Positions 13,720-63,841 of a DNA stretch of 64,000 bases are shown here, in pieces. The notes beneath the pieces are model-generated. The model saw nothing but the letters and a program-made list of their open reading frames with translations, made no database searches and had not been told where the DNA came from. The stretch is from NCBI RefSeq assembly GCF_025244865.1, contig NZ_CP104272.1, forward strand, positions 3,038,001 to 3,102,000, written 5' to 3'. The stretch is from Arthrobacter sp. zg-Y1110. GTDB taxonomy: Bacteria; Actinomycetota; Actinomycetes; Actinomycetales; Micrococcaceae. Position numbers and translations under genes: made by a program. How positions within the stretch are numbered: position 1 is the first letter of the stretch; every line of letters begins with the position of its first letter.

Positions 13720-13766
13720 GTGCAGTAAATGCTGCCTGGCCCGTCCGCAGACAGCATCTACTGCAC
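13720..13766. repeat. Family A intergenic palindrome, copy 1
   Basis: The element is 47 nt long, with GTGCAGTAAATG at the left and CATCTACTGCAC at the right. The arms extend inward to about 16 paired bases. Identical length and nearly identical ends recur at 61736 and 63795, while the middle differs. Confidence 0.85.
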
Positions 13767-13834
13767 ACTCGGCCAGCCGAAGCCTCCTGATGCCCGTCCG
13801 AAGTAAAAGAATGGTCTCGGTTCAGTCCAGGCAT

Positions 13835-13858
13835 GCGACGGCGCGACGGCGCGACGGC
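13835..13858. repeat. Tandem repeat, 3 x 8 bp
   Basis: Three perfect copies of GCGACGGC stand end to end immediately before the degenerate family A palindrome. The copy number may vary between strains. Confidence 0.8.
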
Positions 13859-13903
13859 GTACAGCATGCTGCCCGGCCGTCCCGCAGGGAGCATCACCTG
13901 TAC
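13859..13903. repeat. Degenerate family A-like palindrome
   Basis: GTACAG...CATGCTGCC at the left pairs with GGGAGCATC..CTGTAC at the right, 45 nt in total. The inner GATGCTGCC-type core and the overall size match family A, while the outer arms changed together and still pair. Confidence 0.55.
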
Positions 13904-13977
13904 AGGAGGCAGCAAGGTAGCCCTTCCTCATCGGCAACGGCTGAAGAGGCCAGGGGGCAAAAGCGTGCTTAACAGCA

Positions 13978-14010
13978 AGAAGGACGGCCCCTTTGAGGGA
14001 CCGTCCTTCT
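13978..14010 (-). terminator. Terminator after rpsN
   Basis: A 14-bp stem with one mismatch (13978-13991 with 13997-14010) and loop TTTGA lies 18 bases after the rpsN stop on the minus strand. No strong U run follows. Confidence 0.7.
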
Positions 14011-14027
14011 AAAGCGGTAGGCAGTGC

Positions 14028-14333
14028 TTACCAGCTGGACTTCTTGATGCCCGGCAGTTCGCCTGCGTGGGCCATGTTGCGGAAACGCACACGCGAGATA
14101 CCGAACTTCTGGAGGGTACCGCGGGGGCGGCCGTCAATCTGGTCACGGTTGCGAAGGCGGACCGGGGAAGCGTTGCGCGGAAGCTTCTGCAGGCCGAGGC
14201 GTGCAGCTTCGCGGGCTTCGTCGGTAGCGTTTGCGTCGACCAGGGTCTTCTTCAGTTCGAGGCGCTTGGCAGCGTAACGCTCAACAATAACCTTGCGCTG
14301 CTCGTTGCGGGCAATCTTGGACTTCTTTGCCAT
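14028..14333 (-). CDS. rpsN: 30S ribosomal protein S14 (uS14), zinc-free form
   Basis: This 101-residue S14 opens [14 protein letters not shown] and ends [11 protein letters not shown]. It is the long form without the CxxC...CxxC zinc ribbon of the short S14, and it contains no cysteine at all. It is the last gene of rpmB-rpmG-rpsN, with only two bases between its start and the rpmG stop. In many actinobacteria this trio replaces zinc-binding paralogues when zinc is low. I see no clear Zur box here, so regulation by zinc is inferred only. Confidence 0.95.
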
Positions 14334-14335
14334 TC

Positions 14336-14503
14336 TTAGCGCTCCTCACGGAAATCGACGTGCTGGCGGATCTTGGGATCGTACTTCTTCAGAACCATAC
14401 GATCCGGATCGTTACGACGGTTCTTGCGAGTTACGTAGGTGTAGCCGGTGCCCGCAGTGGACTTCAGCTTGATGATCGGACGTACGTCCTTGTCCTTAGC
14501 CAC
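14336..14503 (-). CDS. rpmG: 50S ribosomal protein L33 (bL33), zinc-free form
   Basis: This 55-residue L33 reads from GTG ([18 protein letters not shown]) to VDFREER. The two CxxC pairs of zinc-binding L33 are absent: the first is replaced around [12 protein letters not shown] and the second in the YDPKIRQH region. The GTG start overlaps the rpmB TAG stop by one base, indicating translational coupling. The gene is too short for a simple length cut-off but is unmistakable. Confidence 0.95.
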
Positions 14504-14739
14504 TACAGCTTCACACCCTTCGCGATCAGATCGGTAACAACAGCGTCGATGCCGCGGATGTCAATCGTCTTGATGCCGCGTGCAGAAACCTGCAGCGTCA
14601 CGTTGCGGCGCAGGGACGGAACCCAGTAGCGCTTCTTCTGAATATTCGGGTCGAACCGACGCTTGTTGCGGCGGTGCGAGTGCGAAATGCTGTGACCAAA
14701 GCCGGGGATGGCTCCGGTTACCTGGCAGTAAGCTGCCAT
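14503..14739 (-). CDS. rpmB: 50S ribosomal protein L28 (bL28)
   Basis: This 78-residue L28 begins [22 protein letters not shown] and ends LIAKGVKL, with the family [18 protein letters not shown] core. The ATG at 14739 follows GGAGGAGAG; the in-frame extension upstream is not coding-like. It has a single Cys, so it is the zinc-free type. It is the first gene of rpmB-rpmG-rpsN. Confidence 0.95.
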
Positions 14740-15113
14740 GATCTCTCCTCCAGTTGTAGTAAATATGACGGTCCTCAAAAAACAGACACAAGGCGGAAGC
14801 GCCTAAGCACCTGCCATAAAGAGCGTCCCGCCACCAGTTTTGACACCGTTATTACTGCGACTTTCCGGAGGTTAACCTGGCGGGGTGAGATCCAGCCGAA
14901 GTGCCTCGCCGCGGGGAAGACGGTGAAGTTCAGGCAGCCGAACGGGAGAACCCGGCTCGACAGCCTTCAATTCTAGGTTTATACGGGTGGCCGTGCAAAT
15001 ACTCCCCTGCCCGCGCGGAGCGGAACAGGTTAACACACACACGACTTAACGCCTCTCTATCCTAGGGGCAACGGGCGTTTCGTTCAAACTCGGAGGTACC
15101 TGCGTGCCGGGTA
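14740..15113. other. Intergenic region upstream of rpmB and downstream of the GlgC-like gene
   Basis: Both flanking genes run leftward, so this region holds the rpmB promoter. A small hairpin, GGCG-GAAG-CGCC, lies at about 14793. AT-rich tracts occur at 14756-14788. I looked for a Zur-type AT-rich palindrome and did not find a convincing one. Nothing coding is visible. Confidence 0.55.
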
Positions 15114-16256
15114 TCACGACGACGGCGGGTCCGCCTTCGAATCGCGTCCCACCACGGCCACGCCGTTTTCCGGATCCAACTCCGCCCCGTCCAGTTTCCG
15201 CCCTCCGCCGATCACCGTCGTGGAGTCCACAATCAGGTTTGCGATACGCGCTCCGGACCGGACCACCACGCCGTCCAGCAGCACGCAGGAATCCACTTCG
15301 GCACCGGCCTCCACCACTGCGCCGGCGCTGAGAACGCTGCGGCGGACGCTGCCTTCGACCCGGGCACCGGGAGACAGCAGGCTCTCCGCGGCGATACCGT
15401 TCGGCCCGACATAGGCCGGCAGCCGCCGTGGGCTGGCGGAAAGGATCGGCCACTGCGGATCATCGAAATCCAGGCCGTTGCCCTCGATCAGGTCCAGGTG
15501 CGCCTGGTGGTAACTGCGCGGCGTGCCCATGTCCCGCCAGTATCCCGGCAGCCGGTATTCCACGACTTTTTCCTGTTCCACCAGGTAGGGAATGAGCTGG
15601 TCTCCGTAGTCCTCGAGCTGCCCGTCCCGCTGCACCAGGGTTTCCAGTGCGTTCAGCAGGACATCGGTGTCATAGAGGAAGATCTCCGCCGCCACCAGGT
15701 CCGTCTTCGGATCCTGGGGCTTGTACTCGAATCCGGTGACCAGCCCGTCGGTTACCTCGACCACTCCGTGGTCCCCCGGATTGTTGTTGATCTTCGTGGT
15801 GACCAGGGTCAGGGCCGCGCCGTTTGCCTGGTGGGTTTCGACGACGTCGCGGTAGTCCAGGCGGTAGAGATGGTCGGCGCTGAGCACCAGCACGAGGTCC
15901 GGGTCGAATTCGCGGATGTAATCCGCCTGGCGGTACAGGGCGTCCGCGTTGCCCTGGGCGAAGCCTTCGCCGTCGCCGCCCTGGAACGGCGGAAGCACCC
16001 GCAGCCCGCCCTGGGTGCGGTCAAGGTCCCAGGGCCGCCCGCTGACCATCTGGTCATTGAGCGACTGGGGCTTGTACTGCTCCACAATCCAGACATCGCC
16101 GAAGCCGCTGTTGTGCAGGTTGGAGAGGGAAATATCGATGAGGTTGTAGGACCCGGCGACCGGGATGGCCGGTTTCGCTCGGTGGTCCGTCAAGCTGCCC
16201 AACCGTCCGCCGGCACCGCCGGCGAGGACTACGGTCAGGATTCGGGGTACGCGCAT
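15114..16256 (-). CDS. Divergent glucose-1-phosphate adenylyltransferase-family protein
   Basis: This 380-residue sugar-phosphate nucleotidyltransferase has an N-terminal Rossmann-like domain. It carries the nucleotide-binding LAGGAGGRLGSLTDHRAKPA motif at residues 11-30, and Asp in LSADHLYRLD at about 126 for the metal/sugar phosphate. A left-handed beta-helix C-terminus follows (about 280-370, AYVGPNGIAAESLLSPGARV). It differs from standard GlgC in several blocks, such as VEQYKPQSLNDQM and GGLRVLPPFQGGDGEGFAQG, so it is probably a paralogue. ADP-glucose synthesis is plausible but unproven, and no glycogen gene is adjacent. Confidence 0.8.
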   Translation of the reverse strand: MRVPRILTVVLAGGAGGRLGSLTDHRAKPAIPVAGSYNLIDISLSNLHNSGFGDVWIVEQYKPQSLNDQMVSGRPWDLDRTQGGLRVLPPFQGGDGEGFAQGNADALYRQADYIREFDPDLVLVLSADHLYRLDYRDVVETHQANGAALTLVTTKINNNPGDHGVVEVTDGLVTGFEYKPQDPKTDLVAAEIFLYDTDVLLNALETLVQRDGQLEDYGDQLIPYLVEQEKVVEYRLPGYWRDMGTPRSYHQAHLDLIEGNGLDFDDPQWPILSASPRRLPAYVGPNGIAAESLLSPGARVEGSVRRSVLSAGAVVEAGAEVDSCVLLDGVVVRSGARIANLIVDSTTVIGGGRKLDGAELDPENGVAVVGRDSKADPPSS

Positions 16257-16351
16257 GCTGTGGTGCCTCTCATCGTGCCGTGGATATCGTGCGTTTGCTC
16301 GGTATCCACGCTAACAAGGGCAGGCACCCGGGCGACAAGTTGACTTTGGCG

Positions 16352-16846
16352 CTACGGGGACTGATTCGGCCCGAGAATGCCGTTGCCGGGGTCGAGGCGG
16401 GCGAGTATCTTCTTTCCCACCCGTTCCAGATCCGCAACGTCTTCGTCGGAGAGGCCGTCGAAAACCGCCTTCCGGACGGATTCAACATGTTCCGGCGCGA
16501 GTCCCTCGAGGGCGGCCATGCCTTCATCCGTCAGTGCCGCCGTCGTCACCCGGGCATCCGCAGGCGAGGGGGTCCGGGACATCCAGCCGCGCTGCTCAAG
16601 TTTCTTGACCACATGGGAAAGCCGGGACAGCGAAGCGTTGGAGCGCGCGGCCAGCTCACTCATCGGCAGGGACCTGCCTTCGGCCTCGGAGACCATGGCC
16701 AGGACGTGGTAATCGAAGAGGGTGATCCGCGCGCGGCGGAACAGATCGGCGTCGAGCGCGGCCGGGAGGAGGCCCGATACGGCGTACAGGGCCAACCAGG
16801 CCTGCCGTTCCGGGGCGCTTAGCCAGCGGGGGGTGCTCTCAGTCAT
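16352..16846 (-). CDS. MarR family transcriptional regulator
   Basis: This 164-residue winged-helix regulator contains the recognition segment LAARSNASLSRLSHVVKKLEQRGWMSRTPSPADARVTTAALTDEG, with the beta-wing DAR at about residues 95-97. MarR dimers usually repress nearby or divergent genes and release DNA on binding aromatic ligands. Here the gene lies downstream of an MHS transporter in the same direction, about 136 bases away, so the target is unclear. Confidence 0.9.
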   Translation of the reverse strand: MTESTPRWLSAPERQAWLALYAVSGLLPAALDADLFRRARITLFDYHVLAMVSEAEGRSLPMSELAARSNASLSRLSHVVKKLEQRGWMSRTPSPADARVTTAALTDEGMAALEGLAPEHVESVRKAVFDGLSDEDVADLERVGKKILARLDPGNGILGPNQSP

Positions 16847-16982
16847 CCCGGCGTTCCTCTCGTCAAAGCTTTAGGTTTCAATGATCGCAGGGTTCGGGCT
16901 GCGCTCCAACCGGTGCCAAACGGCAGGAGACGACCGGACGCGCGGGGCGTCCGGCCGGCTCCTGTGGCTGGCGGTATTGCGG

Positions 16983-18569
16983 TTAGCGGCTGACGCCGGG
17001 TTCCGCGCGGTTGTCAGCAGGCTCTGCAGCGGAGGGCGCCTGCTGGCTCCCCAGCGTGTCGAACGGCAGCGAATCGACGTCGAGCCGCGGGTTCTCGTCC
17101 TGGCCTGCCACCAGTTCACGTGCCTCGGCATGGGTGTCCACGCTCGGCATGGACCCGGGCATCGGCCGGTTGGCTGATTCCTTCATAACGCCTACGGCAA
17201 TGGCACCGGCCACGGAGGTGAACATCAGCCAGTAGGCCGGCATCATGTCGTTGTCCGTGAGGGTGATCAGGCCCTGCATGATCAGCGGCGCGGTGCCGCC
17301 GAAGATGGCAACGGCGAAGTTGTAGGAGATGCCCATGGCACCGTAGCGGCTGGCGGTCGGGAAGAGCGCCGGCAGTGCGGAGGCCAGGTTGGACACGTAG
17401 AAGGTCACCGGGATGGCCAGCAGCGCCAGGCCGAGCAGGGTCGTGGCAACCGGCCCCTGGTCAATCAGCCAGAAAGACGGAACAGCCAGGACGATGGTGG
17501 AGCCGGCACCCATCCACAGCACCGGACGGCGTCCGATGCGGTCGGAAAGCTTGCCGGTGAGCGGAATGCACAGGGCCATCAGAACCAGCACGGGGATGGT
17601 CAGCATGGTGCCGTGGACCGGATCGTAGCCCTTGGAATCCGTCAGGTAGGAGGGCATGTAGGACGTCAGCGCGTAGCCCACGGTGTTGGCGGCGGCCACG
17701 AGGACCATGGCCAGCACGATCGGACGCCAGTAGGCACGGAAAATGCCCATGGTGCCCAGCGACTCGGTTTCGTCGCCGCCCTTGGCGCCCGCTTCCTGTG
17801 CATCCAGGGTGGCCTGGAAGGCCGGGGATTCTTCGATCTTGAGCCGGAAGTAGATGGCTACGGCGCCCATCGGTCCCGCGACCAGGAACGGGATGCGCCA
17901 GCCCCAGTCCACCATGTCGGCGTCGGAGAGCAGCAGCTGCATCACCGAGACGACGGCTGCACCCAGGGCGAAGCCCAGGTAGCTGCCCAGGTCCAGGATG
18001 CTGGCGAGGAAGCCGCGCCGCTTGTCGGAGGCGTATTCGGTAACAAAGGTGGTGGCACCGGCGTACTCGCCGCCGGTGGAGAAGCCCTGCAGCAGCTTCA
18101 TAAGCACCAGCAGGATCGGAGCCCAGATGCCGATGGTGCCGTAGCTGGGCAGCAGGCCGATGACGAAAGTGGAACCGGCCATCATGATCAGCGTGATGGC
18201 CAGGGTCTTCTGCCGGCCCATGCGGTCGCCGAGGCGCCCGAAGACGACGCCGCCCAGCGGACGGGCGATGAAGGTGGCAGCGAAGACGCCGAGGCTGAAG
18301 AGCAGCTGTGCGTCCTTGTCGGCGTCGGACAGGAAGACGGCACCCATGGTGACGGCCAGGTAGCCGTAGACACCGACGTCGAACCATTCCATGGTGTTGC
18401 CGACGACGGTGCCGCCGACAGCCTTTTTCATCATGGACTTGTCGACGACATTTACGTCGTCCACCTCAAGTCGGCGGCGCCGCAGGGGGGACCTGCGGGT
18501 CTTGCGGGCCGCCGGTGTGGATGGTGAATCCGGGGTTCCGGAAACGCGGGGCGGTGCATCTTTCGGCAT
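16983..18569 (-). CDS. MFS transporter of the metabolite:H+ symporter (ProP-like) type
   Basis: This 528-residue protein has twelve membrane segments after an unusually long 55-residue basic N-terminus (TRRSPLRRRRLEVDDVNVV). The MHS signature appears as GNTMEWFDVGVYGYLAVTMGAVF, then RPLGGVVFGRLGDRMGRQ and a long-chain LQGFSTGGEYAGATTFVTEYA. The family includes the ProP osmoprotectant and citrate symporters. The start ATG at 18569 is chosen because GGGAAGG precedes it; a longer frame begins inside untranslated DNA. The substrate is unknown. Confidence 0.88.
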   Translation of the reverse strand: MPKDAPPRVSGTPDSPSTPAARKTRRSPLRRRRLEVDDVNVVDKSMMKKAVGGTVVGNTMEWFDVGVYGYLAVTMGAVFLSDADKDAQLLFSLGVFAATFIARPLGGVVFGRLGDRMGRQKTLAITLIMMAGSTFVIGLLPSYGTIGIWAPILLVLMKLLQGFSTGGEYAGATTFVTEYASDKRRGFLASILDLGSYLGFALGAAVVSVMQLLLSDADMVDWGWRIPFLVAGPMGAVAIYFRLKIEESPAFQATLDAQEAGAKGGDETESLGTMGIFRAYWRPIVLAMVLVAAANTVGYALTSYMPSYLTDSKGYDPVHGTMLTIPVLVLMALCIPLTGKLSDRIGRRPVLWMGAGSTIVLAVPSFWLIDQGPVATTLLGLALLAIPVTFYVSNLASALPALFPTASRYGAMGISYNFAVAIFGGTAPLIMQGLITLTDNDMMPAYWLMFTSVAGAIAVGVMKESANRPMPGSMPSVDTHAEARELVAGQDENPRLDVDSLPFDTLGSQQAPSAAEPADNRAEPGVSR

Positions 18570-18781
18570 GTGGGCCTTCCCTCGATCGAAGTCGGCTGCT
18601 GGAGACAGAAGCAACCACCCGAGCACCACACGGTGCCGGGCAGGCCTACAAGTTTATGAAATCTGCGGTGCATCCACCGAATCGAGGAACGTAATTTCCC
18701 TTGTCAGGGCAGGTGCCGGGACCGGTTTTGGTATACAAACAGCGTACTTATCACCGCATATGTGATTTCCCGCACGGGTGG

Positions 18782-19564
18782 CTACGAAGCGGGCAGCGGC
18801 GGGTGGGTCAGCTCCGGATAACGGGGGCTGAGGTTGTCCCCGGAAGACACTCCGCGGAGCCGGCGGCTCACCCACGGGCCCAGGTATTCGCGCGCCCATT
18901 GGGCGTCCTTGCGGAGCTGCTCCACCCGGTTGCGCGCAGGCAGCTCCTCCAGCTCCGGAGTGTTAATGGCGTCCGTTCCGCGGAGCACTTCCAGCACCTT
19001 CTTGGCGGTCAGCATGTGACCGGCCGGGGACATGTGCAGGCGGTCCACGGCCCAGTACCGTTCGTCCTGGAGGTTCTTCATGCGCCAGTAGTCCACCAGC
19101 ACGGCATCGTTCTTCTCCACTGCCTCGCGGACCAGTTCGTTGTAGATCGCCGTGCGTCCGCGGGTGCGTCCGAAGACCGGGGAATTGCCGGAATCGAATC
19201 CCGTGAAGACAAGCACCGCGGCACCGCTGGAGCACAGCTTCGCAATCCCGGCGTCGTAGGCGGCAACTATCGCGTCAATATCCACCTTGGGACGCAGGAT
19301 GTCATTGCCCCCTGCATAGATGGTCACCAGCGTGGGCGACAGCGCGATGGCGGCATCCACCTGCTCGTTCAGGACCTGGTGCAGCTTCTTGCCGCGGATG
19401 GCGAGGTTCGCATACCCCCAGGAGCTGTCCGCGAGCACCAGTTGCTCGGCCACGCGGTCCGCCCACCCGCGCACGCCGTTGGGACGGGTCTCATCCTCAT
19501 CCCCCACGCCTTCCGTAAACGAATCACCCAGGGCCACGTATCGCTGCTTGAAAGTCACCACCAC
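18782..19564 (-). CDS. SGNH/GDSL family hydrolase
   Basis: This 260-residue serine esterase/lipase-like protein has the GDSF block at residues 13-16 (catalytic Ser15). The GGND block is IYAGGNDILRP at about 90, and the C-terminal DRLHMSPAGH at about 190 carries the catalytic Asp and His. There is no signal peptide, so it acts in the cytoplasm. It is divergent from the lipid-kinase-like gene at 19688. The substrate is unknown. Confidence 0.9.
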   Translation of the reverse strand: MVVTFKQRYVALGDSFTEGVGDEDETRPNGVRGWADRVAEQLVLADSSWGYANLAIRGKKLHQVLNEQVDAAIALSPTLVTIYAGGNDILRPKVDIDAIVAAYDAGIAKLCSSGAAVLVFTGFDSGNSPVFGRTRGRTAIYNELVREAVEKNDAVLVDYWRMKNLQDERYWAVDRLHMSPAGHMLTAKKVLEVLRGTDAINTPELEELPARNRVEQLRKDAQWAREYLGPWVSRRLRGVSSGDNLSPRYPELTHPPLPAS

Positions 19565-19687
19565 AGATTACAAGCTTCCTCGAGAAACTCCCGTTCCAAG
19601 CCGGGTGCCGCACCAGCCACAGCCGGGCCCGGGACCGGGCTAGACTCAGAGCCGGACCATAGTTCGCATGCTTACGATAAGGACACC

Positions 19688-20650
19688 ATGACCAGCCCAG
19701 ACACCCAGTCGCGTCCCCGTGCCGCCGTCATTGTGAACCCCATCAAGAAGACGGATTTTGACGTCCGGGTGCGGGTGGCGGAAATCTGCGCCGACGAAGG
19801 CTGGGATGAGCCGTTGTTCTTCGACACCGAGGAAGCAGACCCGGGGCACTCCATGGCGCGCAAGGCCATGGAAGCCGGTGTCGACCTGGTGATTGCCGCC
19901 GGCGGAGACGGTACCGTGCGCTGCGTCGCCGCGGAGCTGGCCGGCACATCCTTCCCCATGGGCCTGCTGCCGCTGGGCACCGGCAACCTCCTGGCCCGCA
20001 ACCTGGACATCGGGGTCGATGATCCGGAGCAGGCAGTCCGCGCCGCCCTCAACGGCACGGAGCGGCGCATCGACGTCGTCCACGTCACCGTTGATGAAGC
20101 CGTGGACAGCGACACCTTCCTGGTGATGGCGGGGCTGGGCTACGACGCCGGCATGATGGCGGACACCAAGGACACGCTCAAGGACAAGATCGGCTGGCTG
20201 GCGTACGTCGACGCCGGCATCCGGAACCTTCCCGGCAAGCCCGTCAAGACCACCATCTCGATCGACGGCGGCAAGCCGATCCACCGCCGTCTCCGCAGCG
20301 TCATGGGTGGAAACTGCGGCAAGATCACCGGTGGCCTGGAGATTTTCCCGGGTGCCAAACTCGACGACGGGCTGCTGGACATCCTGACGCTGGCGCCCAA
20401 GGGCAAGCTGGGCTGGGTGGGCGTGGTGACCGGGCTGCTGCGCCGCGGCAAGGGCAGCAGCACCGCTGTGGAGTACTACCAGTGCAAGCGCGCCGAGGTG
20501 TGGGCCGAGTCCCCGCTGGACTTCGAAATGGACGGCGACCATCTGGGCAACGCCACCCATATCCTGTTCGAGATGGATGCCAGTGCGCTGCGCATCCGGA
20601 TGCCCTACGGCAAGAAGGACCCTGCGGTCCTCACCAACCCGGTGCCGTAA
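19688..20650 (+). CDS. Diacylglycerol kinase family lipid kinase
   Basis: This 320-residue protein has the DAGK catalytic fold. The nucleotide-binding GGDGT is at residues 72-76, and PLGTGNLLARNL at about 95-106 is the second conserved loop. It probably phosphorylates diacylglycerol or a related lipid (YegS/BmrU family) at the inner membrane. The ATG at 19688 follows GATAAGGACACC; the open frame extends far upstream, but that part overlaps the divergent hydrolase gene and is non-coding. A hairpin terminator follows. Confidence 0.9.
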   Translation: MTSPDTQSRPRAAVIVNPIKKTDFDVRVRVAEICADEGWDEPLFFDTEEADPGHSMARKAMEAGVDLVIAAGGDGTVRCVAAELAGTSFPMGLLPLGTGNLLARNLDIGVDDPEQAVRAALNGTERRIDVVHVTVDEAVDSDTFLVMAGLGYDAGMMADTKDTLKDKIGWLAYVDAGIRNLPGKPVKTTISIDGGKPIHRRLRSVMGGNCGKITGGLEIFPGAKLDDGLLDILTLAPKGKLGWVGVVTGLLRRGKGSSTAVEYYQCKRAEVWAESPLDFEMDGDHLGNATHILFEMDASALRIRMPYGKKDPAVLTNPVP

Positions 20651-20658
20651 CCCGTGAC

Positions 20659-20682
20659 CCGGGCCGTCTCCGGACGGCCCGG
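20659..20682. terminator. Bidirectional terminator between convergent genes
   Basis: CCGGGCCGTC (20659-20668) pairs perfectly with GACGGCCCGG (20673-20682) around a 4-nt loop. It sits between the convergent lipid kinase and M23 peptidase genes and touches the peptidase stop codon. Confidence 0.75.
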
Positions 20683-21684: not shown

Positions 21685-21990
21685 TCACCTCAGTGTGCGT
21701 TGGTCAAGGACTCTTCCGTGATCCGGACTTTCTGCCGTCCGTTGCGTTCCGGGCCCGGGCAGCCTTCACCGGGTTCCCTGGAGCGCTGAAGCCGGACTGG
21801 AACGTATCTGCGGGACCATCCCGGTCCTCCGCCTGGCAATCCGGCCCGGTTTTAATTCTAGAAACCGGCAGGCCGCCGGTCTCCCTTTTGTGGCCAATCC
21901 CAACACACCCGGTGACCCATGTCCGGCACCCCCGTGTCAGAGGTCTCGCCAACACCCGGGCCCACGGTCGGTCCGGCTCAGGGCACGTGC
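21685..21990. other. Intergenic region between the siderophore operon and the M23 gene
   Basis: Both flanking genes are on the minus strand. A small stem, ACCGGC/GCCGGT (21864-21869 with 21875-21880), followed leftward by TTTC, may end the siderophore operon. A second imperfect stem spans the operon's last stop codon (about 21981-22003). The M23 promoter must lie in the lower part. No gene is seen. Confidence 0.5.
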
Positions 21991-27247: not shown

Positions 27248-27248
27248 G

Positions 27249-55339: not shown

Positions 55340-55473
55340 GCCCGCTATATTACCGCTCAGTAACTTAGTGTCGAGGTGCGCCGCGGAATTTTCTTTTCCC
55401 GGTCCGCTGGCGCGCGAACCGGTACCGGCCCCCGCAGTGCGGCGCCCGTCAGCGCCAGGCCCTCAGCGCCGCG

Positions 55474-56565: not shown

Positions 56566-56698
56566 GGCGGTTTCCTCTTCGTTGCGGGTCCGCGGGCATG
56601 GCGGCCCGACGTACTGAGGACTCTAGTCCGGTGCGGGACTGCCTGTCCTTAACGGCGCCGCCCTGTTCCCTCGCAACCAGCCGCGTTACCTTTTCTGC

Positions 56699-56995
56699 AT
56701 GCACACCCTCGTTGTTTTGTTCCGGCAACCGGTGGACCCGGCTGCCTTCCGGCGGCACTACCGCAACGTGCACCTGCCGCTGGTGCGCAACATTCCCGGC
56801 CTCCGCGACCTGCGGGCGTCCGAGGAGCTGAGGTCCGCGGAGGAGCGGCCGCCGTATTTTGCACTGTTTGAAGCCGATTTCGACGACGAATCGGCCATGC
56901 AGGAGTCACTGACCACCGCCGAGGGCCAGGCCGCCAACGCCGATATTCCTCGTTTCGCGACCGGCGGGCTGACCGTGTTCACCTACCGGAACTAG
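56699..56995 (+). CDS. EthD family protein
   Basis: This 98-residue ferredoxin-like-fold protein has the EthD pattern LVVLFRQPVDPAAFRRHYRNVHLPLVRNIPGLRDLR. EthD proteins accompany or support degradation of ethers and aromatics; catalytic activity is uncertain. It stands alone between two leftward genes, and its ATG lacks a strong ribosome-binding site. Confidence 0.85.
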   Translation: MHTLVVLFRQPVDPAAFRRHYRNVHLPLVRNIPGLRDLRASEELRSAEERPPYFALFEADFDDESAMQESLTTAEGQAANADIPRFATGGLTVFTYRN

Positions 56996-57026
56996 GCGCC
57001 GGCGTCTTCCGCGTACCCCGGAAATT

Positions 57027-57722
57027 TCAGTCGTCGTCGCCCGGCGCCGCCCGGAACCCGCGCTGCTTGGCGTCCATCCACAGCACCACGTCCATGGCCC
57101 GCAGCCTGGAAACCCGGACGGGCAGGGCCGCCCGGTCCTGGACCGCGTCCAGGCGCCGGACCAGTTCCCGGTCATTGGCGGTGAGCAGCGCATGCCATTG
57201 CTCCCACTGCGTGAGGGAGGTACCCGCCCCGATGCTGCGGGCCACCATCGAATCCCAGATCGGAATCAGTTTCGGCCGCTTGCGGGCCAGCAGCTTGCTG
57301 GTTTTCATGGGGCCCATCTTCCACTGCCCGCCCCGGTAGCCCCGGAACACGTCCCAGAGCAGCCACGCCGGACTGTCCTTGCCGAGGACGTGGACGTATT
57401 CGACGCCGGTAACGTCCGCCAGCTCCAGGTTCACCGGAATCAGTTCCAGCAGCTCGCCGATCTCCGGGGCCTTGGTCTCGAGCAGCCCCACCACCGCCGG
57501 TCCCTTGATTTCCTCGCCCAGCAGGGCCAGTGCAAGCAGGTCGTCAGCGGTGATCCGGTTGGCGGCCCCCGGGGAGTCTCCGCCGCCGGCCCAGGTGTCG
57601 AACCTCGCCCCGGTCCGCACATGCCCCGAGGTCAGTTTCTGCGTGTAGTAGCGGTGCAGCAGGGCGGCGGCGTCGTCGACGTGGCCGGCGTCGAGGATGG
57701 CTGGAAGGTCCACGGGGTCCAC
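57027..57722 (-). CDS. DUF6308 family protein
   Basis: This 231-residue cytoplasmic protein matches DUF6308, with ARFDTWAGGGDSPGAANRITADDLLALALLGEEI at about residues 39-72. The function is unknown. It starts with GTG one base after the binding-protein stop, so it is translated with the betaine-importer operon. Confidence 0.8.
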   Translation of the reverse strand: MDPVDLPAILDAGHVDDAAALLHRYYTQKLTSGHVRTGARFDTWAGGGDSPGAANRITADDLLALALLGEEIKGPAVVGLLETKAPEIGELLELIPVNLELADVTGVEYVHVLGKDSPAWLLWDVFRGYRGGQWKMGPMKTSKLLARKRPKLIPIWDSMVARSIGAGTSLTQWEQWHALLTANDRELVRRLDAVQDRAALPVRVSRLRAMDVVLWMDAKQRGFRAAPGDDD

Positions 57723-57723
57723 C

Positions 57724-58725
57724 TCACTCGGGAGCGGTAATCAGGCCCTTCTCGACCATCCAGTCGAAGGCGACGTCGGCGGGCTCCTGGCCGTAGACGT
57801 CTACGGCAAGGTTCATCTTGCGCAGTTCCTCGTCCGTTAGCAACGGGGACACCTGCGCGAAGATGTCTACCAGCTCCGGATATTCCTCCAGCGCGTCGGT
57901 GTTGAAGACCGGCGCCGCGTTGTAGGCCGGGAAGTAGGCCAGGTCATCCACGAGCACGGTCAGGCCCAGCGAATCGATCCGTCCGTCCGTGGCAAAGACC
58001 TCGCCGAAGTTGCACTCCCCGGCGTCGGTGGCCGAATACACGGCACCGGTGTCATAGATGCCGATATTGGCGTCCGGCACGCCGTTGGGCGCCCCGCGCG
58101 GTATGCCGTACTTTTCCAGCAGCGGGTTCATGCCGTCCGGACGCGAGTTGAACTCGGCCTCGAGGCAGAACGTGCGCTCCTCCACCGGCAGGTTGGCGAT
58201 GTCGGAGATGCTGTCCACCCCCAGTTCCTCGCCCGCTTCGCTGCGGATGGCCATGGCGTAGGTGTTGTTCAGCGGTGCCGGATCGCCCCACGTGACGCCG
58301 TTGGCAAGGTCCGCGTCATGCACGGCCTGCCATTGTTCCTGCTTGTCGGGGATGCCTTCGCTCTGCCCGAGGTAGGCGATCCACCCGGTGCCGGTGTATT
58401 CCCACGTCATGCCTGCCTGCCCCGATAGGAGCAGCTCCCGGGCCGGCTGGCTGCCGGGCACGTTGGTCAGGTCGGTGACGTCGAAGCCGGCTACCTTGGT
58501 GGCCAGCACCGCGATCTTGCCCAGGATGAGTTGTTCGGTGAAGTTCTTGCTGGTGACGGTGAGTTTCGCGTCGTCGGGCAGGCCCTCAACCGGCTGGATC
58601 AGGCCGGGGTCCGCCTCCGGCACGTAGGAGGCGGCGGGCTGCAGTCCGCAGCCTGCAAGCAGCAGGCCGACGGCGGCGGCTCCTGCGGCAGCGAGGCGGA
58701 CGCGTGCGTTTGGCTGCTTTTTCAT
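57724..58725 (-). CDS. opuCC: Compatible-solute-binding lipoprotein (OpuCC-like)
   Basis: This 333-residue glycine betaine/choline-type binding protein has lipobox LLAGC, Cys at residue 26. VTSKNFTEQLILGKIAVLATKVAG at about 52-75 and WEYTGTGWIAYLGQ at about 110 match the OpuAC/ProX-like fold. Substrates may be glycine betaine, choline or carnitine. It is last of the four transporter genes, overlapping the permease stop by one base. Confidence 0.88.
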   Translation of the reverse strand: MKKQPNARVRLAAAGAAAVGLLLAGCGLQPAASYVPEADPGLIQPVEGLPDDAKLTVTSKNFTEQLILGKIAVLATKVAGFDVTDLTNVPGSQPARELLLSGQAGMTWEYTGTGWIAYLGQSEGIPDKQEQWQAVHDADLANGVTWGDPAPLNNTYAMAIRSEAGEELGVDSISDIANLPVEERTFCLEAEFNSRPDGMNPLLEKYGIPRGAPNGVPDANIGIYDTGAVYSATDAGECNFGEVFATDGRIDSLGLTVLVDDLAYFPAYNAAPVFNTDALEEYPELVDIFAQVSPLLTDEELRKMNLAVDVYGQEPADVAFDWMVEKGLITAPE

Positions 58726-59504
58726 TAGAGTCCCTTCGGCCGGGCGATGTGCTCGACCAGACGGCCGATCCAGTCGACCACCAGGGCCAGCAGCGCCACC
58801 AGCAGGGCTCCGGCCACCAGCACCGTGGTCAGGTTCAGGTTCACGCCGGTGGTGATGAGGATCCCCAGCCCGCCGCCGTTGACGAACGTGGCCAGGGTGG
58901 CAGTGCCCACCAGGAGCACCAGGGCGGTCCGGACGCCGGAGAGCATCACGGGCACCGCGAGCGGCAGTTCCAGCCGAAACAGCACCTGGGCGTTGCTCAT
59001 GCCGACGCCGCGGCCGGCCTCGACGATGCGCGGGTCCACCTGCTGCAGGCCCACCATCGTGTTCCGCATAACCGGCAGCAGGGCGTAGACCACCAGCGCG
59101 CCGATGGCGGCCCGGAAGCCGAACCCGACCCAGAAGGCCAGCAGCACCAGCAGCCCGATGGCCGGCGCGGCCTGGCCGATGTTGGCCAGCGCCATGATCG
59201 GTCCGGTGACCCGGCGCATCCGTCCGCGGGTGAGCAGCACGCCCAGCGGGATGGCGACCACCAGCACGATCACGGCGGACACCCCGGTGAGCAGGAGGTG
59301 CTGGACGGTGTATTCCCACAGTGCTGCGGGGTCCAGCGTGGTGCGCTCGGTGACGCTGAGCTCGGCGGTGGTCAGCCAGAGCATCAGGAGTCCGAAGGCC
59401 ACCGCGATGCCGGCCAGCTGCAGCAGCAGCGGGCGCCACGACGTCGGGCCGGCACCGCTTTCGGCTTCGGTCCGGGCCTGCGCAGCCGTCGAAACGGCGG
59501 TCAT
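58725..59504 (-). CDS. Compatible-solute ABC permease (OpuCB/D-like), second
   Basis: This 259-residue permease has about five to six membrane segments, with EAA-type motif EAGRGVGMSNAQVLFRLELPLAVPVMLSGVR at about residues 165-195. A polar N-terminus of about 30 residues precedes the first helix. Its start overlaps the ATPase stop by four bases. Confidence 0.88.
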   Translation of the reverse strand: MTAVSTAAQARTEAESGAGPTSWRPLLLQLAGIAVAFGLLMLWLTTAELSVTERTTLDPAALWEYTVQHLLLTGVSAVIVLVVAIPLGVLLTRGRMRRVTGPIMALANIGQAAPAIGLLVLLAFWVGFGFRAAIGALVVYALLPVMRNTMVGLQQVDPRIVEAGRGVGMSNAQVLFRLELPLAVPVMLSGVRTALVLLVGTATLATFVNGGGLGILITTGVNLNLTTVLVAGALLVALLALVVDWIGRLVEHIARPKGL

Positions 59505-60784
59505 CGGGTGCCCTGGCCGGCGGCAGCACCGGCGTCGTCCTGCACCGCTGCCTGGGCGTCTGTCTCGGTGCCGCGTCGGATGGCGCCGCTGTTGAGGCCC
59601 ACCGGTGCGCCGGAGGAGCCCTGCTGCGCGGCGTCGTTCGCTGCCGTGATCGCCTCCATCACGGTCTGGACGGTGATCAGGCCGAGGAACCGGTCCCGCG
59701 GCCCCGTCACCAGGGCGGCGCCGGTGCTGGAAACCAGCATGGTGTCCAGCGCGTCATTGAGGGTGGACTGGTTCCCGATCACCGGAAGCTTGGGATCGAC
59801 GATGTCGGTGTGCCGGTCCAGGCGGCTGAGCTGGCGGCGGGAGAGCCACTGGATGGGCCGCTCGCGTTCGTCCAGCACCACGGCGTTCTGCTCGCCGGCG
59901 CCCTGCAGCCGGGAGAGGGTGTCACTGGCGAGGTCTCCGATGGCGGCCGTAATCGGGGACGTCAGCTCCACCTCGTTCACCCGGGTCAGGGTGAGCTGCT
60001 TCAGGCCCGCGCCGGAGCCGATGAAGTTCTCCACGAACTCGTTGGCAGGATTGGCCAGGATCCGTTCCGGGGAGTCGTACTGGACCAGCTGGGCGCCCTC
60101 GTCGAAGATGGCGATCCAGTCCCCCAGCTTCACCGCTTCGTCGAAGTCATGGGTGACGCAGACGATGGTCTTGTGCAGTTCGGACTGGATGTGCAGCAGT
60201 TCGTCCTGCAGCCGCTGGCGGGTGATCGGATCCACGGCGCCGAACGGTTCATCCATGAGCAGCACGGGCGGATCGGCGGCCAGCGCACGGGCCACCCCCA
60301 CGCGCTGCTGCTGCCCGCCGGACAGCTCCTTCGGGTAGCGGTCCCGGTACAGGGCCGGATCCAGGGAGACCAGTTCGAGCAGCTCGTCCACCCGCGCCTG
60401 GATGCGGTCCTTGTCCCAGTTGAGCATCTTGGGCACGACGGCGATGTTCGCCCCCACGGTCATGTGCGGAAAGAGCCCGCCGGCCTGGATGACGTAGCCG
60501 ATCCCGCGGCGCAGCTGGTCGCCGTCGATCCCGGTGACGTCTTCGCCGTCGAGGATGATCCGTCCGCTGGTGGGCTCGATGAGCCGGTTGATCATCTTCA
60601 GCGTGGTGGTCTTGCCGCAGCCCGACGGGCCAACCAGCATCACGATGCTGCCCCGCGGAATCTCCATGGTCAGGCCGCCGACAGCCGGCTTGCCCTGCCC
60701 GGGGAAGCGCTTGGTGACGTCTTCGAGCAGGATGCCGGTGGCGGTGCCTTTGGCGCCGGTGGTTGGGGAAAGAGTCTCAGACAC
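59501..60784 (-). CDS. Compatible-solute ABC transporter ATPase with CBS domains (OpuCA-like)
   Basis: This 427-residue ATPase has Walker A GPSGCGKTT at about residues 51-59, signature ELSGGQQQR at about 150 and Walker B VLLMDEPFGAVDP. CBS-type domains follow at about 270-400, with FLGLITVQTVMEAI near the end; they sense ionic strength in OpuA-type importers. GTG at 60784 is chosen because GAGG lies upstream, giving an eight-base overlap with the preceding permease. Confidence 0.9.
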   Translation of the reverse strand: MSETLSPTTGAKGTATGILLEDVTKRFPGQGKPAVGGLTMEIPRGSIVMLVGPSGCGKTTTLKMINRLIEPTSGRIILDGEDVTGIDGDQLRRGIGYVIQAGGLFPHMTVGANIAVVPKMLNWDKDRIQARVDELLELVSLDPALYRDRYPKELSGGQQQRVGVARALAADPPVLLMDEPFGAVDPITRQRLQDELLHIQSELHKTIVCVTHDFDEAVKLGDWIAIFDEGAQLVQYDSPERILANPANEFVENFIGSGAGLKQLTLTRVNEVELTSPITAAIGDLASDTLSRLQGAGEQNAVVLDERERPIQWLSRRQLSRLDRHTDIVDPKLPVIGNQSTLNDALDTMLVSSTGAALVTGPRDRFLGLITVQTVMEAITAANDAAQQGSSGAPVGLNSGAIRRGTETDAQAAVQDDAGAAAGQGTR

Positions 60785-61418
60785 GGATACCTCGCGGGGT
60801 TGTGAGCCGGCCGAGGCCGACCAGGAGAAGGTCAAGGATCAGGGCCAGCAGGATGACGCCGACGACGCCGACCACCACGGACTCGAGGGAGTTGGCCCCG
60901 CCCAGGCGGGACAGGCCGGTGAAGATGAAGCCGCCCAGTCCCGGCCCGAGGGCGTAGGCCGCGATGGCGGCAATACCCATCACCATCTGGGCGGACACCC
61001 GCACGCCGGCCAGGATGACCGGCCAGGCCAGCGGCAGTTCGATGCGCAGCAGCGTGCGCAGCCGGCTCATGCCGACACCGCGGGCGGATTCAACAACGGT
61101 CGGGGAAATTCCGGCCAGGCCCACCACCGCGTTGCGCAGGATGGGCAGGGTGGCATAGAACGCCACCACGATCACGGCCGGCACGGCACCGAACCCGAAG
61201 GGTGCGATCAGCAGGCCGATCAGGGCGAAGGACGGGAGCGTCAGGCCAACTGCGGAGACGCCGTTGGCCACTCCGCTGAGGGTCTTATTGCGGTAAACCA
61301 GGGCCGCGATAACCACGGCTATGACCGTGGCGAGGATCAGGCACTGGACAACTAGGCTGAAGTGCTGCCATCCGGCGAACAGGATCTGCTGATACCGGTC
61401 CGCCACGAATTCCCACAC
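60777..61418 (-). CDS. Compatible-solute ABC permease (OpuCB/D-like), first
   Basis: This 213-residue permease has ESARGVGMSRLRTLLRIELPLAWPVILAGVRVSAQ, the EAA-like motif, at about residues 110-144. About five membrane segments are present. It is the first gene of the operon, and the promoter must lie in the 61419-61640 stretch. Confidence 0.88.
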   Translation of the reverse strand: MWEFVADRYQQILFAGWQHFSLVVQCLILATVIAVVIAALVYRNKTLSGVANGVSAVGLTLPSFALIGLLIAPFGFGAVPAVIVVAFYATLPILRNAVVGLAGISPTVVESARGVGMSRLRTLLRIELPLAWPVILAGVRVSAQMVMGIAAIAAYALGPGLGGFIFTGLSRLGGANSLESVVVGVVGVILLALILDLLLVGLGRLTTPRGIRV

Positions 61419-61735
61419 ATCAAGACCTCTTCACTTTGGTTGCGTATGTTCCTTGTCGCCGCCCGGCGTTGGTGTCCGAGCTTGGAGTCCGAGCTTGGTG
61501 CCCGAGCGAAAACTACCAAGCAACCTTACCGTTACCTGCCTCACAAAGCGCTCCGGGAAGCTCCAAACCCGTACAACATGGTGTTTTTGCTGCGGGCGGA
61601 GTTAGTGCTGGCCGGCCTGGCCGTCGGCGTGGCCTCACACTCTCTGGAACTCTGGTGGCTGCGGTTGTTACACCGGGAACACCAGCCACACTGGATGGGG
61701 TTTTCTGCCGGCTTCAGTGGCCGGACGCGTTCATA

Positions 61736-61782
61736 GTGCAGTAGATGTCGCCTCACCTGCCCGCGGGCAGCATCTACTGCAC
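61736..61782. repeat. Family A intergenic palindrome, copy 2
   Basis: It spans GTGCAGTAGATG to CATCTACTGCAC, 47 nt. Pairing extends outside the unit (TTCATA against TCTGAA), so the outer stem is about 18 bp with one mismatch. Confidence 0.88.
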
Positions 61783-61808
61783 TCTGAACGTGCGGGCGCG
61801 GGCTCTGG

Positions 61809-61885
61809 TGAGCAGATAACGGGGTTTAGCCGGATCCAGTGAGCAGATAACGGGGTTATTCCACGGAGATAACCCCGCTATCTAC
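61809..61885. repeat. Family B intergenic palindromes, copy 2
   Basis: GTGAGCAGATAACGGGGTT occurs twice in direct orientation (61809-61827 and 61840-61858), 31 bases apart. The second copy pairs with ATAACCCCGCTATCTAC, giving a 43-nt hairpin at 61843-61885. Confidence 0.8.
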
Positions 61886-61900
61886 TCAGTAGACGGATTT

Positions 61901-61957
61901 CCAGGGGAAGGTGCTGCGTCGGGGCGCACGCCAGGGGCAAGGTGCTGCGTCGGGGCG
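61901..61957. repeat. Direct duplication, 2 x about 27 bp
   Basis: CCAGGGG(C)AAGGTGCTGCGT plus CGGGGCG occurs at 61901-61926 and again at 61931-61957, period 30, with one inserted base. Confidence 0.85.
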
Positions 61958-62022
61958 TGCACCGGGACGTCGCCAGCCTCGCGACCGCCGACATCGTTCC
62001 ACCGCTCCTATCCAAATCAGCC

Positions 62023-63459
62023 CTACCGCGCGCCGGACCGGAGCCGGGCAAGGACGTGCTCCTCGGCGTCGGGCCCTGCCTTGATGCCCGCCGGCACCCG
62101 GAAGAAGAAGACCAGGCCGACCACCCACCACGCAGCGAACAGGACCCACGGCTCAAGCCCCAACGCCGCTGGCATGCCCGGCATGTAGAGGCTGAACAGG
62201 GCCAGACCAAAGACCGCGGCGGCAATACCGATGACGATGCCGCCGTTACCGCGCCCGCCGATCCGCAGCGGCCGGTCCATAGCCGGTTCGCGCCGGCGCA
62301 GGATGAGGAATGAAATCGCCACCAGGGTGTAGGCCAGCACGATGCTCGGTGCCCCGGAGTCCACCAGCCAGCCGAGCATCTCCGCGCCGCCGAACGGGGC
62401 GAGGAAACTCAGCGCCCCGATGAACAGCAGTGCGTTGTGCGGGGTGTGGTACTTCGGATGCAGGCGGCCGAACCATGCCGGGAGCATGCCTGAACGGGCC
62501 AGGGAATACATCAGCCGGGACGCACCCATCAGCAGCGAGTTCCACGAGGTGAGGATGCCTGCGATGCCGCCGGCAATCAGGATCTTGGCCATGATGTCCG
62601 AGCCGAACATGGCTCCGACGGCGTCCGCCGTCGCAATATCCGTCTGCGCCAGGTCTCCGGCGGACATGGCCGAAGAGGTGGTCAGCACCACCATGAGGTA
62701 CCAAATGGTTGCCAGCACCACGGAGACAACTACGAGCTTGCCGATCTGCTTGGCGGGGATGTTCACTTCCTCGGCGGACTGCGGAATCACGTCGAAGCCG
62801 ATAAACAGGAAGGGCACCACCACCAGGACCGCGAAGAACCCGGTCATGCCGTTGTTAATCCACGGCTCCATGTTGGCCACGGACCCTCCGGTGAACGAAC
62901 CGGCAATCATCACCAGCCCGATGGCCAGCAGGAAAAGCACCACGAAGGTCTGCACCACGCCCGCTTCCTTCACGCCGCGGATGTTGATCCAGGTGATGAC
63001 GACGGCGGCAGCCGCACCTACCAGCGCCCAGGTCAGGTGCACGTCGAAGCCCGCCACGGTCCACAGGTGAATCTGGCTCAGGTCCGGGAAGATGTACTGC
63101 ACCGTGCGGGGCAGGGCCACGGCTTCGAACGCCACAATGGTCACATAGCCGCCGATGATGGCCCAGGATCCCACGAAGGAAGTCCGCGGGCCCATGGCGC
63201 GCATGATGTAGTTGTGCTCGCCGCCGGCCTTTGGCATCGCCGCGCACAGCTCGGCGTAGGTCAGTCCGACCACCGCCATGATGACGCCGCCGGTAACCAT
63301 GGCCAGCACCGAGCCGAGGGTGCCGGCATTGATCAGCCAGTCGCCGGTGAGCACCACCCAGCCGAAACCGATCATTGCGCCGAAACCTAGGGCCAGGACG
63401 TCGATCCGGCCGAGGACTTTCTTGAGCGAGGGCTCGGTTTCGTGGAGCGAGGTTCCCAC
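62023..63459 (-). CDS. APC family amino acid permease
   Basis: This 478-residue protein has about twelve membrane segments, starting LKKVLGRIDVLALGFGAMIGFGWVVLTGDWLINAG, with GFGWV in helix 1. The YAELCAAMPKAGGEHNYIMRAMG block at about 75-97 is typical of APC permeases. The C-terminal tail has PDAEEHVLARLRSGAR. GTG at 63459 follows AAGGGGTGCC; an upstream reading is rejected. The substrate is unknown. The gene is bracketed by direct copies of a repeat element. Confidence 0.88.
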   Translation of the reverse strand: MGTSLHETEPSLKKVLGRIDVLALGFGAMIGFGWVVLTGDWLINAGTLGSVLAMVTGGVIMAVVGLTYAELCAAMPKAGGEHNYIMRAMGPRTSFVGSWAIIGGYVTIVAFEAVALPRTVQYIFPDLSQIHLWTVAGFDVHLTWALVGAAAAVVITWINIRGVKEAGVVQTFVVLFLLAIGLVMIAGSFTGGSVANMEPWINNGMTGFFAVLVVVPFLFIGFDVIPQSAEEVNIPAKQIGKLVVVSVVLATIWYLMVVLTTSSAMSAGDLAQTDIATADAVGAMFGSDIMAKILIAGGIAGILTSWNSLLMGASRLMYSLARSGMLPAWFGRLHPKYHTPHNALLFIGALSFLAPFGGAEMLGWLVDSGAPSIVLAYTLVAISFLILRRREPAMDRPLRIGGRGNGGIVIGIAAAVFGLALFSLYMPGMPAALGLEPWVLFAAWWVVGLVFFFRVPAGIKAGPDAEEHVLARLRSGAR

Positions 63460-63611
63460 CCGGCACCCCTTTCCATGTCGTGCCGCCCTAAAGGGGCAAG
63501 TGATGACGCAGTGTGGACACGGAGAGTGGCTCCGGCTGCGTTGACGGAAGAACAACGCTAATGCACTTTGTGTTTGCGGTCACATTCTTACGTCATGAGA
63601 GCTCACCTCGT

Positions 63612-63651
63612 GTACGGGTGATGCTGCCTGGCGTGGTTCCGGGCGGCATCA
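63612..63651. repeat. Degenerate family A-like palindrome
   Basis: GTACGGGTGATGCTGCC at the left pairs by its inner part with GGGCGGCATCA (63641-63651). It resembles the 13.86-kb relative, whose arm is GTACAG with the same TGATGCTGCC-like core. Confidence 0.5.
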
Positions 63652-63794
63652 GCCGGACAGGAGCGGCGCTTTGGACCGGTCCTGCATGATTTCCCATGAA
63701 CTGTGATGGCTCTGGCTGTAGTTGTCACACCAGGAACAGGAGCACCAGTGGGTGGGAAGTTCTGCGGCGTTTCATCGGCCCGGACGCGTTCAGA

Positions 63795-63841
63795 GTGCAG
63801 TAGATGTCGTCTGGCCGGTCCGGAGGCAGCATCTACTGCAC
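63795..63841. repeat. Family A intergenic palindrome, copy 3
   Basis: GTGCAGTAGATG...CATCTACTGCAC, 47 nt, arms identical to copy 2. Outside it TTCAGA and AGTGAA pair further. Confidence 0.88.

Follow-up and report, generated by a model that had tools for sequence, protein, structure and literature searches.

Palindromic Units in the Window

The stretch of 64 kb analysed here (the window), from Arthrobacter sp. zg-Y1110 (genome G000), carries three 47-nt palindromes of one family, A, at 13720-13766, 61736-61782 and 63795-63841, all with the constant arms attributed to them in a preliminary description of the sequence. Pairing exceeded that described there, comprising 18-bp arms and an 11-nt loop, and in many copies the outer pairs GTTCATA...TATGAAC enlarge the unit to 63 nt. 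The three units lie on the forward strand at 13712-13774 (genome position 3051712; 71.4 bits with model R1), 61728-61790 (78.4 bits) and 63787-63849 (77.8 bits), and gave fold z values of -3.3, -6.7 and -6.5 as single-stranded DNA. The 12-nt arm, allowing up to two mismatches, was found 18 times in the window vs. 4.3 expected (0/100 shuffles).

Units of a sibling family, B, were located on the same strand at 13499-13561 (GTGCAGATAACGGG..., in the same 63-nt frame as A; genome 3051499; R2 53.3 bits; DNA fold z -2.2) and at 61833-61895 (GAGCAGATAACGGGG...CCCCGCTATCTACTC; genome 3099833; R2 50.7 bits, also detected by the hairpin scan; DNA fold z -4.4). An extra B left half-unit at 61810-61840 (forward strand), found in the sequence and as repeat family D4, stands 31 nt before the B core as a direct repeat, and a B right half survives as a remnant (ATAAGCCCTTTATCTGCTCAGTAGATG) at 63862-63902 (forward strand), recognised from the sequence alone and missed by the models. 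Two relatives with altered arms had been described as still pairing at least in part. One of them, 63612-63651, is a real hairpin of sibling type and belongs to a D-type unit with changed arms at 63604-63666 (forward strand; R1 28.9 bits; R2 32.1 bits; DNA fold z -5.9). The other, 13859-13903, is a weak, decayed relative (13858-13904, forward strand; R1 17.1 bits, E 0.0025) whose DNA fold was equalled in 137 of 200 shuffles (z +0.5).

The palindromes are intergenic and occur in modular arrays. Family C of the array falls outside the best explanation given below. Derivation of the array from a phage or plasmid was discarded: at E 0.01 the interval 63595-63925 matched nothing in the two collections. 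At gathering scores, Rfam reported only one tRNA in the whole window; the palindromes, which had been placed in no known family, matched no catalogued RNA family.

Copies in the Genome and Change Between Genomes

More copies occur genome-wide, a first pattern giving seven and a second one ten (≤3 mismatches), and 13 of the 15 model matches in the genome were intergenic according to a simple, purpose-made gene caller based on codon usage; the two exceptions were weak (32 and 23 bits). Copies in the zg-Y1110 genome were found between tandem, convergent and divergent genes alike. The earlier picture of a fixed-length, intergenic and mobile-like family was borne out, with further copies genome-wide. 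Model matches in other genera were not read as members of family A, since many long hairpins of other sequences turned up when 20 stretches, each of 20 kb, were surveyed in three other genera. A DUF6308 gene adjoining some arrays was taken as a coincidence of one neighbourhood.

At one site beside a tRNA-Ser gene, palindromes were gained, lost or changed in type between genomes, with half-units repeated in G008; neither a target-site duplication nor a clean footprint of insertion was recognised at this site, the only one compared, where gain or loss was seen. The loci L027 and L034 differed at 10/63 sites within the unit and 13/354 in the flanks, corresponding to a swapped unit centre. Stems varied less than flanks between species (16/216 vs. 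386/2006 in six pairs; 35/396 vs. 730/3627 in all 11 pairs run, which overlap).

Paired Change and the RNA Level

The sibling families A, B and D fit one common frame of 63 columns, with pairing kept between them. The paired change proposed earlier was not found inside family A and was not clear inside D; it was detected within B and between families. When 3' arms were swapped (66 units in all), the 30 A copies showed 75.5% observed pairing vs. a mean of 76.1%, with 732 of 1000 swaps at least as high, the corresponding figures being 120/1000 in D and 2/1000 in B. Between families, pairing reached 75.8% vs. a swapped mean of 57.8% (maximum 63.2 in 500). In alignment A3, which comprises 64 units (one minus-strand unit and one other absent), two of five covariation measures stayed within shuffles (both-side changes 177/500; pair types 253/500).

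Selection on an RNA fold, one of the forms of selection suggested at first, was not favoured because G-U and A-C mismatches were about equally frequent in the stems (107 vs. 103; 26 vs. 29 in oriented A units). Visual inspection showed palindromes ending in CATCTACTGCAC, without the T-run of an intrinsic terminator.

A Nuclease Gene Bracketed by A Palindromes

A RAYT-like transposase had been considered as a possible partner of the palindromes. The Y1 transposase family PF01797 was not detected in any of the 29 genomes of the genus, that of zg-Y1110 included, whereas a control search was positive in 5 of 14 known genomes. A different partner was encountered outside the window, where a nuclease gene at G000 C1:1,072,439-1,073,398, the only one of its type found by profile in this genome, has an A palindrome on either side (68.1 and 73.6 bits). 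The second of these palindromes contains the TAG stop codon of the gene; the neighbouring genes are presumably accC-like and maf-like, and no AbiEii nucleotidyltransferase toxin gene adjoins the nuclease gene in G000.

The encoded protein has an AbiEi-like part at its N terminus and, at its C terminus, a nuclease part of the Vsr/EDxHD type (DUF559, REase_MTES_1575). PADLOC AbiEi models matched all 27 homologues and Pfam AbiEi_4 matched one of the 27; the G000 and G053 proteins scored below the curated cut-offs of PF18741 and PF04480. In the predicted model (pLDDT 92.5), the catalytic part resembled the homing endonuclease I-Bth0305I (3r3p; probability 0.98, target TM 0.62, E 0.061) and the DUF559-like 3hrl in a Foldseek search that gave no match at E ≤ 0.001 and in which the best E-values belonged to chains of ribosomes and viruses with low TM. 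Residues E207, D240, H257 and D266 were invariant in the 27 homologues, and we take them to be those of the EDxHD family motif. The model combines a Vsr-like fold with conserved catalytic residues, and the protein is predicted to cleave DNA.

A first motif scan for the nuclease found nothing and a second one found it in seven loci from two genomes. Of 119 genomes searched, 96 contained genes of the AbiEi/DUF559 type, that of zg-Y1110 among them. The nuclease gene is carried by all 29 genomes of the genus, including those that lack A palindromes, and it rarely moves, since accC and maf are its neighbours in 17 of 25 loci of the genus.

Palindromes Beside Homologous Nuclease Genes

The search profile was built from two proteins in loci that had been retrieved for their palindromes. 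Among 99 nuclease loci in relatives (59 in a first sample and 40 in a second), long palindromes were present on both sides in 33, on one side in 31 and on neither in 35 by the criterion used. Of the 59, 29 came from 12 genomes picked for model matches, the other 30 and the 40 of the second sample not being palindrome-picked; strands of the 59 were set by tblastn, 21 being on the other strand. Palindrome density in the first sample was 72 per 46.6 kb beside the gene vs. 10 per 132.4 kb farther out in the same loci, and in the second 31 per 31.6 kb vs. 2 per 34.0 kb; an unselected survey gave 39 per 400 kb. The match started 84-138 nt after 18 of the 29 upstream palindromes.

Furthermore, the palindromes flanking one gene shared their arms (identity at ≥14 of 18 positions) in 32 of 33 pairs vs. 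41 of 624 cross-pairs. This was seen in each sample (23/24 vs. 40/552 and 9/9 vs. 1/72), and a permutation test in the first gave 0/10,000. Palindrome similarity also tracked protein identity (Mantel r 0.50, 0/2000), in a test of 22 plus-strand loci, with the mis-framed proteins of L213, L214 and L241 left out, that ignores shared descent. Within the genus, the type of palindrome adjoining the gene differs between species and is A, B or D, the same types as in the window.

Additionally, the palindrome beside the nuclease gene of G005 was used as a query, in a search where one palindrome can match on two strands. At least 60 matches were obtained in G005, at least 62 in both G022 and G025, at least 61 in G016, 32 in G023 and two in G006, with zero in the other 23 of the 29 genus genomes; in terms of copies, four genomes have some 30 or more each, two have fewer and 23 have none. 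In G025, G016 and G023 this palindrome was absent beside the nuclease genes examined (two, one and two loci, respectively). In G152, from which 12 GTTTTTGTACAG palindromes were retrieved, this sequence also lies on both sides of a nuclease gene. G000, G005, G022 and G152 are the best-tested cases in which the dispersed palindromes share the sequence of the gene-side one. A comparison of the dispersed palindromes of eight genomes with the gene palindromes (14/18) was mixed, some genes matching other genomes equally often.

Discussion

These results point to family A as dispersed copies of the palindrome that brackets the nuclease gene, in a system that would work like REP and RAYT with an unrelated enzyme, a reading to which we give a probability of roughly two in three. 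The AbiEi-like part may bind the palindrome as an operator-like inverted repeat with predicted half-sites of 12 bp, 23 nt apart; such binding would explain the fixed length of 47 nt. The nuclease part would nick or cut the palindrome or its cruciform, and repair or copying could then put palindromes at new intergenic sites.

Some of the same observations would suit a system with nothing mobile, in which the palindromes are operators of an AbiEi-like regulator together with dispersed regulatory or self-marking sites, and the nuclease restricts or regulates. The inverted repeats of AbiEi in its own promoter have a similar geometry (PMC3985639), the distance of most upstream palindromes from the match start is a possible operator position, and the stems vary less than the flanks between species. 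Nevertheless, we consider this unlikely: an operator needs no copy downstream of a stop codon, the copies of G000 occur in tandem, convergent and divergent arrangements alike, and copy numbers near 30, with the type change at one site, look like spread. Less probable again is that the palindromes spread otherwise, by replication slippage or gene conversion, and that the nuclease gene homes into or inserts beside them. The repeated half-units of G008, the swapped centre of L027/L034 and the palindrome-rich genomes G025, G016 and G023, whose examined nuclease genes lack the G005 palindrome, would be accommodated by such homing, but a gene that keeps its accC-maf position in 17 of 25 genus loci hardly moves. 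Arms matched on both sides, and their agreement with the protein, call instead for a specific link.

That the hairpins act as RNA, as terminators or structured 3' UTR elements, is very improbable: some copies in G000 do directly follow stop codons or separate convergent genes, but one lies between divergent genes, and the missing T-run, the balance of G-U and A-C mismatches and the absence of an Rfam match argue against it. Least probable of all is that these are classical REP elements that have lost their RAYT. Their position between genes, in modular arrays, would fit, but PF01797 was not found in the 29 genus genomes under a positive control (5/14), no unpaired GTAG tag was seen and the units measure 47-63 nt.

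Beyond the copies of the nuclease-bracketing palindrome themselves, the recurrence of the palindrome-nuclease pairing with other repeat sequences in relatives suggests an undescribed kind of self-spreading palindrome. In the broadest form, for which and against which we see even chances, these would be selfish palindromes of Arthrobacter and its relatives, for which a homing-type (EDxHD/Vsr) nuclease, joined to a DNA-binding AbiEi domain, would recognise and cut its own operator-like palindrome and spread copies of it, and occasionally of the gene, through the genome. If true, REP/RAYT would have an independent counterpart, a candidate explanation for the spread of palindromic repeats that lack a RAYT, and a role could also be assigned to AbiEi/DUF559-type genes of unknown function. 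One set of dispersed palindromes now has a candidate gene partner that is specific and testable, and in a literature search the nuclease class of this partner was not seen linked to REPs.

Comparison with Known Systems

The closest described arrangement is that of REPtrons, in which a RAYT gene lies between two palindromes, with dispersed copies, palindromes matching the protein and modular arrays (PMC2817692). Here too the gene of a putative DNA-cutting enzyme is bracketed by palindromes with dispersed intergenic copies. Bracketing on both sides was seen in only 33 of 99 loci. In contrast to REP/RAYT, no Y1/HUH enzyme was found in the genus and the partner combines AbiEi with a Vsr-like nuclease; the Arthrobacter unit measures 47-63 nt rather than 20-40, and by eye the aligned units carry no unpaired tag, either GTAG or CGTC. 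CGTC REPs are dispersed palindromes without a known dedicated transposase (PMC3733652, whose main text does not mention Arthrobacter or Actinobacteria). The palindromes described here resemble them and other transposase-orphan REPs in being dispersed without a dedicated transposase, and differ from them in showing no CGTC tag and in having a candidate partner gene.

The AbiEi operator consists of inverted repeats of 11 bp separated by N27 in its own promoter, which extend to 23 bp with four mismatches (PMC3985639). An AbiEi-like domain accompanied by inverted repeats is shared with the AbiE type IV toxin-antitoxin system (11 + 27 + 11 nt in AbiE), whereas the protein here is fused to a nuclease, no AbiEii adjoins it in G000 and the palindromes stand on both sides of the gene and across the genome. 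With the EDxHD/Vsr-type homing endonuclease I-Bth0305I, the protein shares the predicted fold of its catalytic part and the invariant E, D, H and D, although its gene is free-standing between palindromes.

Family A palindromes and their pairing

The three 47-nt family A palindromes reported in the preliminary description were present at positions 13720-13766, 61736-61782 and 63795-63841 of the window, and a hairpin scan detected 13 long hairpins in the window versus 0-1 in three block shuffles. The 3.9-Mb source genome (G000, with the window at C1:3038001-3102000) contained 7 copies, all exactly 47 nt long though 11 to 35 nt were allowed between the arms, and a second pattern tolerating up to 3 mismatches recovered 10. 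A model built from 10 copies gave 15 matches in this genome at E ≤ 0.1. The intergenic placement proposed earlier was confirmed for 13 of them, the two inside open frames being weak. The A unit consisted of an 18-bp stem and an 11-nt loop, and many copies were extended outward by GTTCATA/TATGAAC to a 63-nt unit. Family A was patchy, with a model match at E ≤ 0.001 in 31 of 119 genomes; the matches inspected outside the genus were mostly long hairpins of other sequence.

Hairpins of two other types, B (GAGCAGATAACGGGG or GTACAGATAACGGGG) and D (CTTCTGTACAGCTGATGCTG), surrounded the A palindromes. Units of A (n = 30), B (n = 22) and D (n = 14) fell into one common ungapped frame of 63 columns, in which CAG and CTG kept constant positions. 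A superfamily model built on these units found 19 units in the source genome at E ≤ 0.001; at E ≤ 1e-5, 23 of the 248 genomes searched from the order (Micrococcales) had a match.

In an alignment of 64 of the 66 units, the helix was paired in 83.8% of cells, versus 69.5% in shuffles (0/500) and 25-44% in slid versions, and the covariation score was 0.478 versus 0.236 in shuffles (0/500). In these 64 units, neither the pairs changed on both sides (177/500) nor the number of pair types (253/500) exceeded the shuffles. Compensatory change within family A, suggested previously, was not borne out, since swapping 3' arms among A copies had no effect on pairing (732/1000); such swaps had no clear effect in the D family (120/1000) and did alter pairing in the B family (2/1000). 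When the same sites were compared between species in six pairs, the stem changed least (16/216; flanks 386/2006, loop 15/65); all 11 pairs, which overlap, gave 35/396, 730/3627 and 29/120 for stem, flanks and loop. Stem mismatches of the G-U and A-C kinds were about equally frequent, which did not favour a constraint acting on RNA from one strand.

A putative nuclease gene bracketed by matching palindromes

The RAYT-like partner suggested for the palindromes was sought in 29 genomes of the genus Arthrobacter, and none of them yielded a Y1 transposase. A gene of about 320 codons in the source genome (C1:1072439-1073401; L077:4940-5902) was bracketed by A palindromes at 1,072,311 and 1,073,385, its stop codon lying inside the downstream one (TAG of GTGCAG-TAG-ATG). 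G053, which belongs to another genus, encodes a protein 39% identical to this one between two mutually matching palindromes of different sequence. The AbiEi-like part matched a PADLOC AbiEi model in 27/27 homologues, and the Vsr-like nuclease part matched PF18741 in 18/27 and DUF559 in 12/27, with E207, D240, H257 and D266 invariant among the 27. By sequence, the nuclease part matched PDB 3hrl (E 0.006). For the predicted structure (pLDDT 92.5), Foldseek gave probabilities of 0.98 for 3r3p and 0.97 for 3hrl, with no E-value below 0.001 and with unrelated chains of low TM in the top rows by E-value.

A search profile made from these two proteins found homologues in 96 of 119 genomes, including all 29 of the genus. 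Long palindromes lay on both, one and no side of the gene at 10, 14 and 6 of the 30 loci best by protein score, at 14, 5 and 10 of 29 loci from 12 genomes chosen for having model matches, and at 9, 12 and 19 of 40 later loci taken in list order, minus places already taken or cut by a contig end. The first 59 loci had 72 long palindromes per 46.6 kb beside the gene versus 10 per 132.4 kb further out in the same loci (about 20-fold), and the 40 later loci 31 per 31.6 kb versus 2 per 34.0 kb (about 17-fold); an unselected survey gave 39 per 400 kb. At two-sided loci, the arms of the flanking palindromes matched in 32/33 cases versus 41/624 cross-pairs. Palindrome similarity increased with protein identity (Mantel r 0.50, 0/2000; 22 loci, shared descent not corrected). 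The gene lay between accC and maf at 17 of 25 loci of the genus. The source protein was only 53-57% identical to ten orthologues of the genus (G002, G008, G009, G012, G015, G018, G020, G026, G027 and G028), and the AccC and Maf matches of these genomes were 94-99% identical.

The palindrome downstream of the G005 nuclease gene was used as a query against the 29 genomes of the genus, where each place can match on two strands. At least 60, 62, 62 and 61 matches were obtained in G005, G022, G025 and G016, that is, about 30 places or more in each, counting the gene's own palindromes; G023 gave 32, G006 gave 2 and the other 23 genomes none. This palindrome type adjoined a nuclease gene in G005 and G022. 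The examined nuclease loci of G025, G023 and G016 had other palindromes or none, contrary to the prediction of the simplest form of the idea. In G152, first noted for 12 examined GTTTTTGTACAG palindromes, the best nuclease locus carried a GTTTTTGTACAG palindrome on both sides. A looser comparison with dispersed palindromes over eight genomes had a mixed outcome.

Arrays, gain and loss, and a possible exchange of units

In relatives, the units frequently followed the order D-C-A-B, with A and B centres commonly 102-105 nt apart and in others about 31 or 62 nt more. Family C, a third, longer palindromic repeat (like TCCCACCCGGTGGTGCTGTT...AACAGCACCACTGGGTGGGA), lay between D and A at about 61635-61715 and 63690-63766 of the window and in L005-L007 and L060; no partner gene was found for it. 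B half-units were repeated 31 nt apart at window positions 61810 and 61841.

A site between a gene and tRNA-Ser carried A in G000 and G009 and D in G015 and G020. In G008, the D palindrome at this site had about six extra right half-units behind it, each 32 nt long (L137, right of position 1220). In G027, G012, G018 and G013, the spacer measured 63-80 nt and contained no unit of these kinds. Between loci L027 (G015) and L034 (G028), the A unit centre (position 1501-1563) differed at 10/63 sites and the flanks at 13/354, and the G028 centre was identical to that of G027 (L059). This contrast indicates that part of the palindrome was swapped or converted locally. A natural A/B hybrid with an A-like loop and B-like paired arms (GTGCAGATAA...TTATCTGCAC) was seen in G002 (L107:692-754). 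A DUF6308 gene adjoined arrays (L083:8220-8930 in G009; L055; L057); it seems to have been duplicated together with them in G009, and the source genome seems to keep only a 3' remnant, near 63915-63940 of the window.

Three genomes of other genera (L110-L129) were rich in long hairpins built from other repeats, such as GCGAGATCACCCC in G053, and these are perhaps further systems of the same kind.

Proposed mechanism and comparison with known systems

It was observed directly that the palindromes bracket the gene with matching arms, follow the protein lineage and also occur as dispersed copies, that the protein has the domain make-up described, and that a search found no RAYT. In the mechanism proposed, the AbiEi-like part would bind the palindrome, the nuclease part would cut, and the palindrome would spread through repair or copying. 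The fixed length of 47 nt would follow from two half-sites at a set spacing. Among the open-licence papers that literature searches brought up, none showed a connection between palindromic repeats and genes of the AbiEi, DUF559 or Vsr-like kinds. As published, AbiEi binds an inverted repeat of 11-N27-11, extending to 23 bp (PMC3985639); the family A palindrome has the form 12-N23-12.
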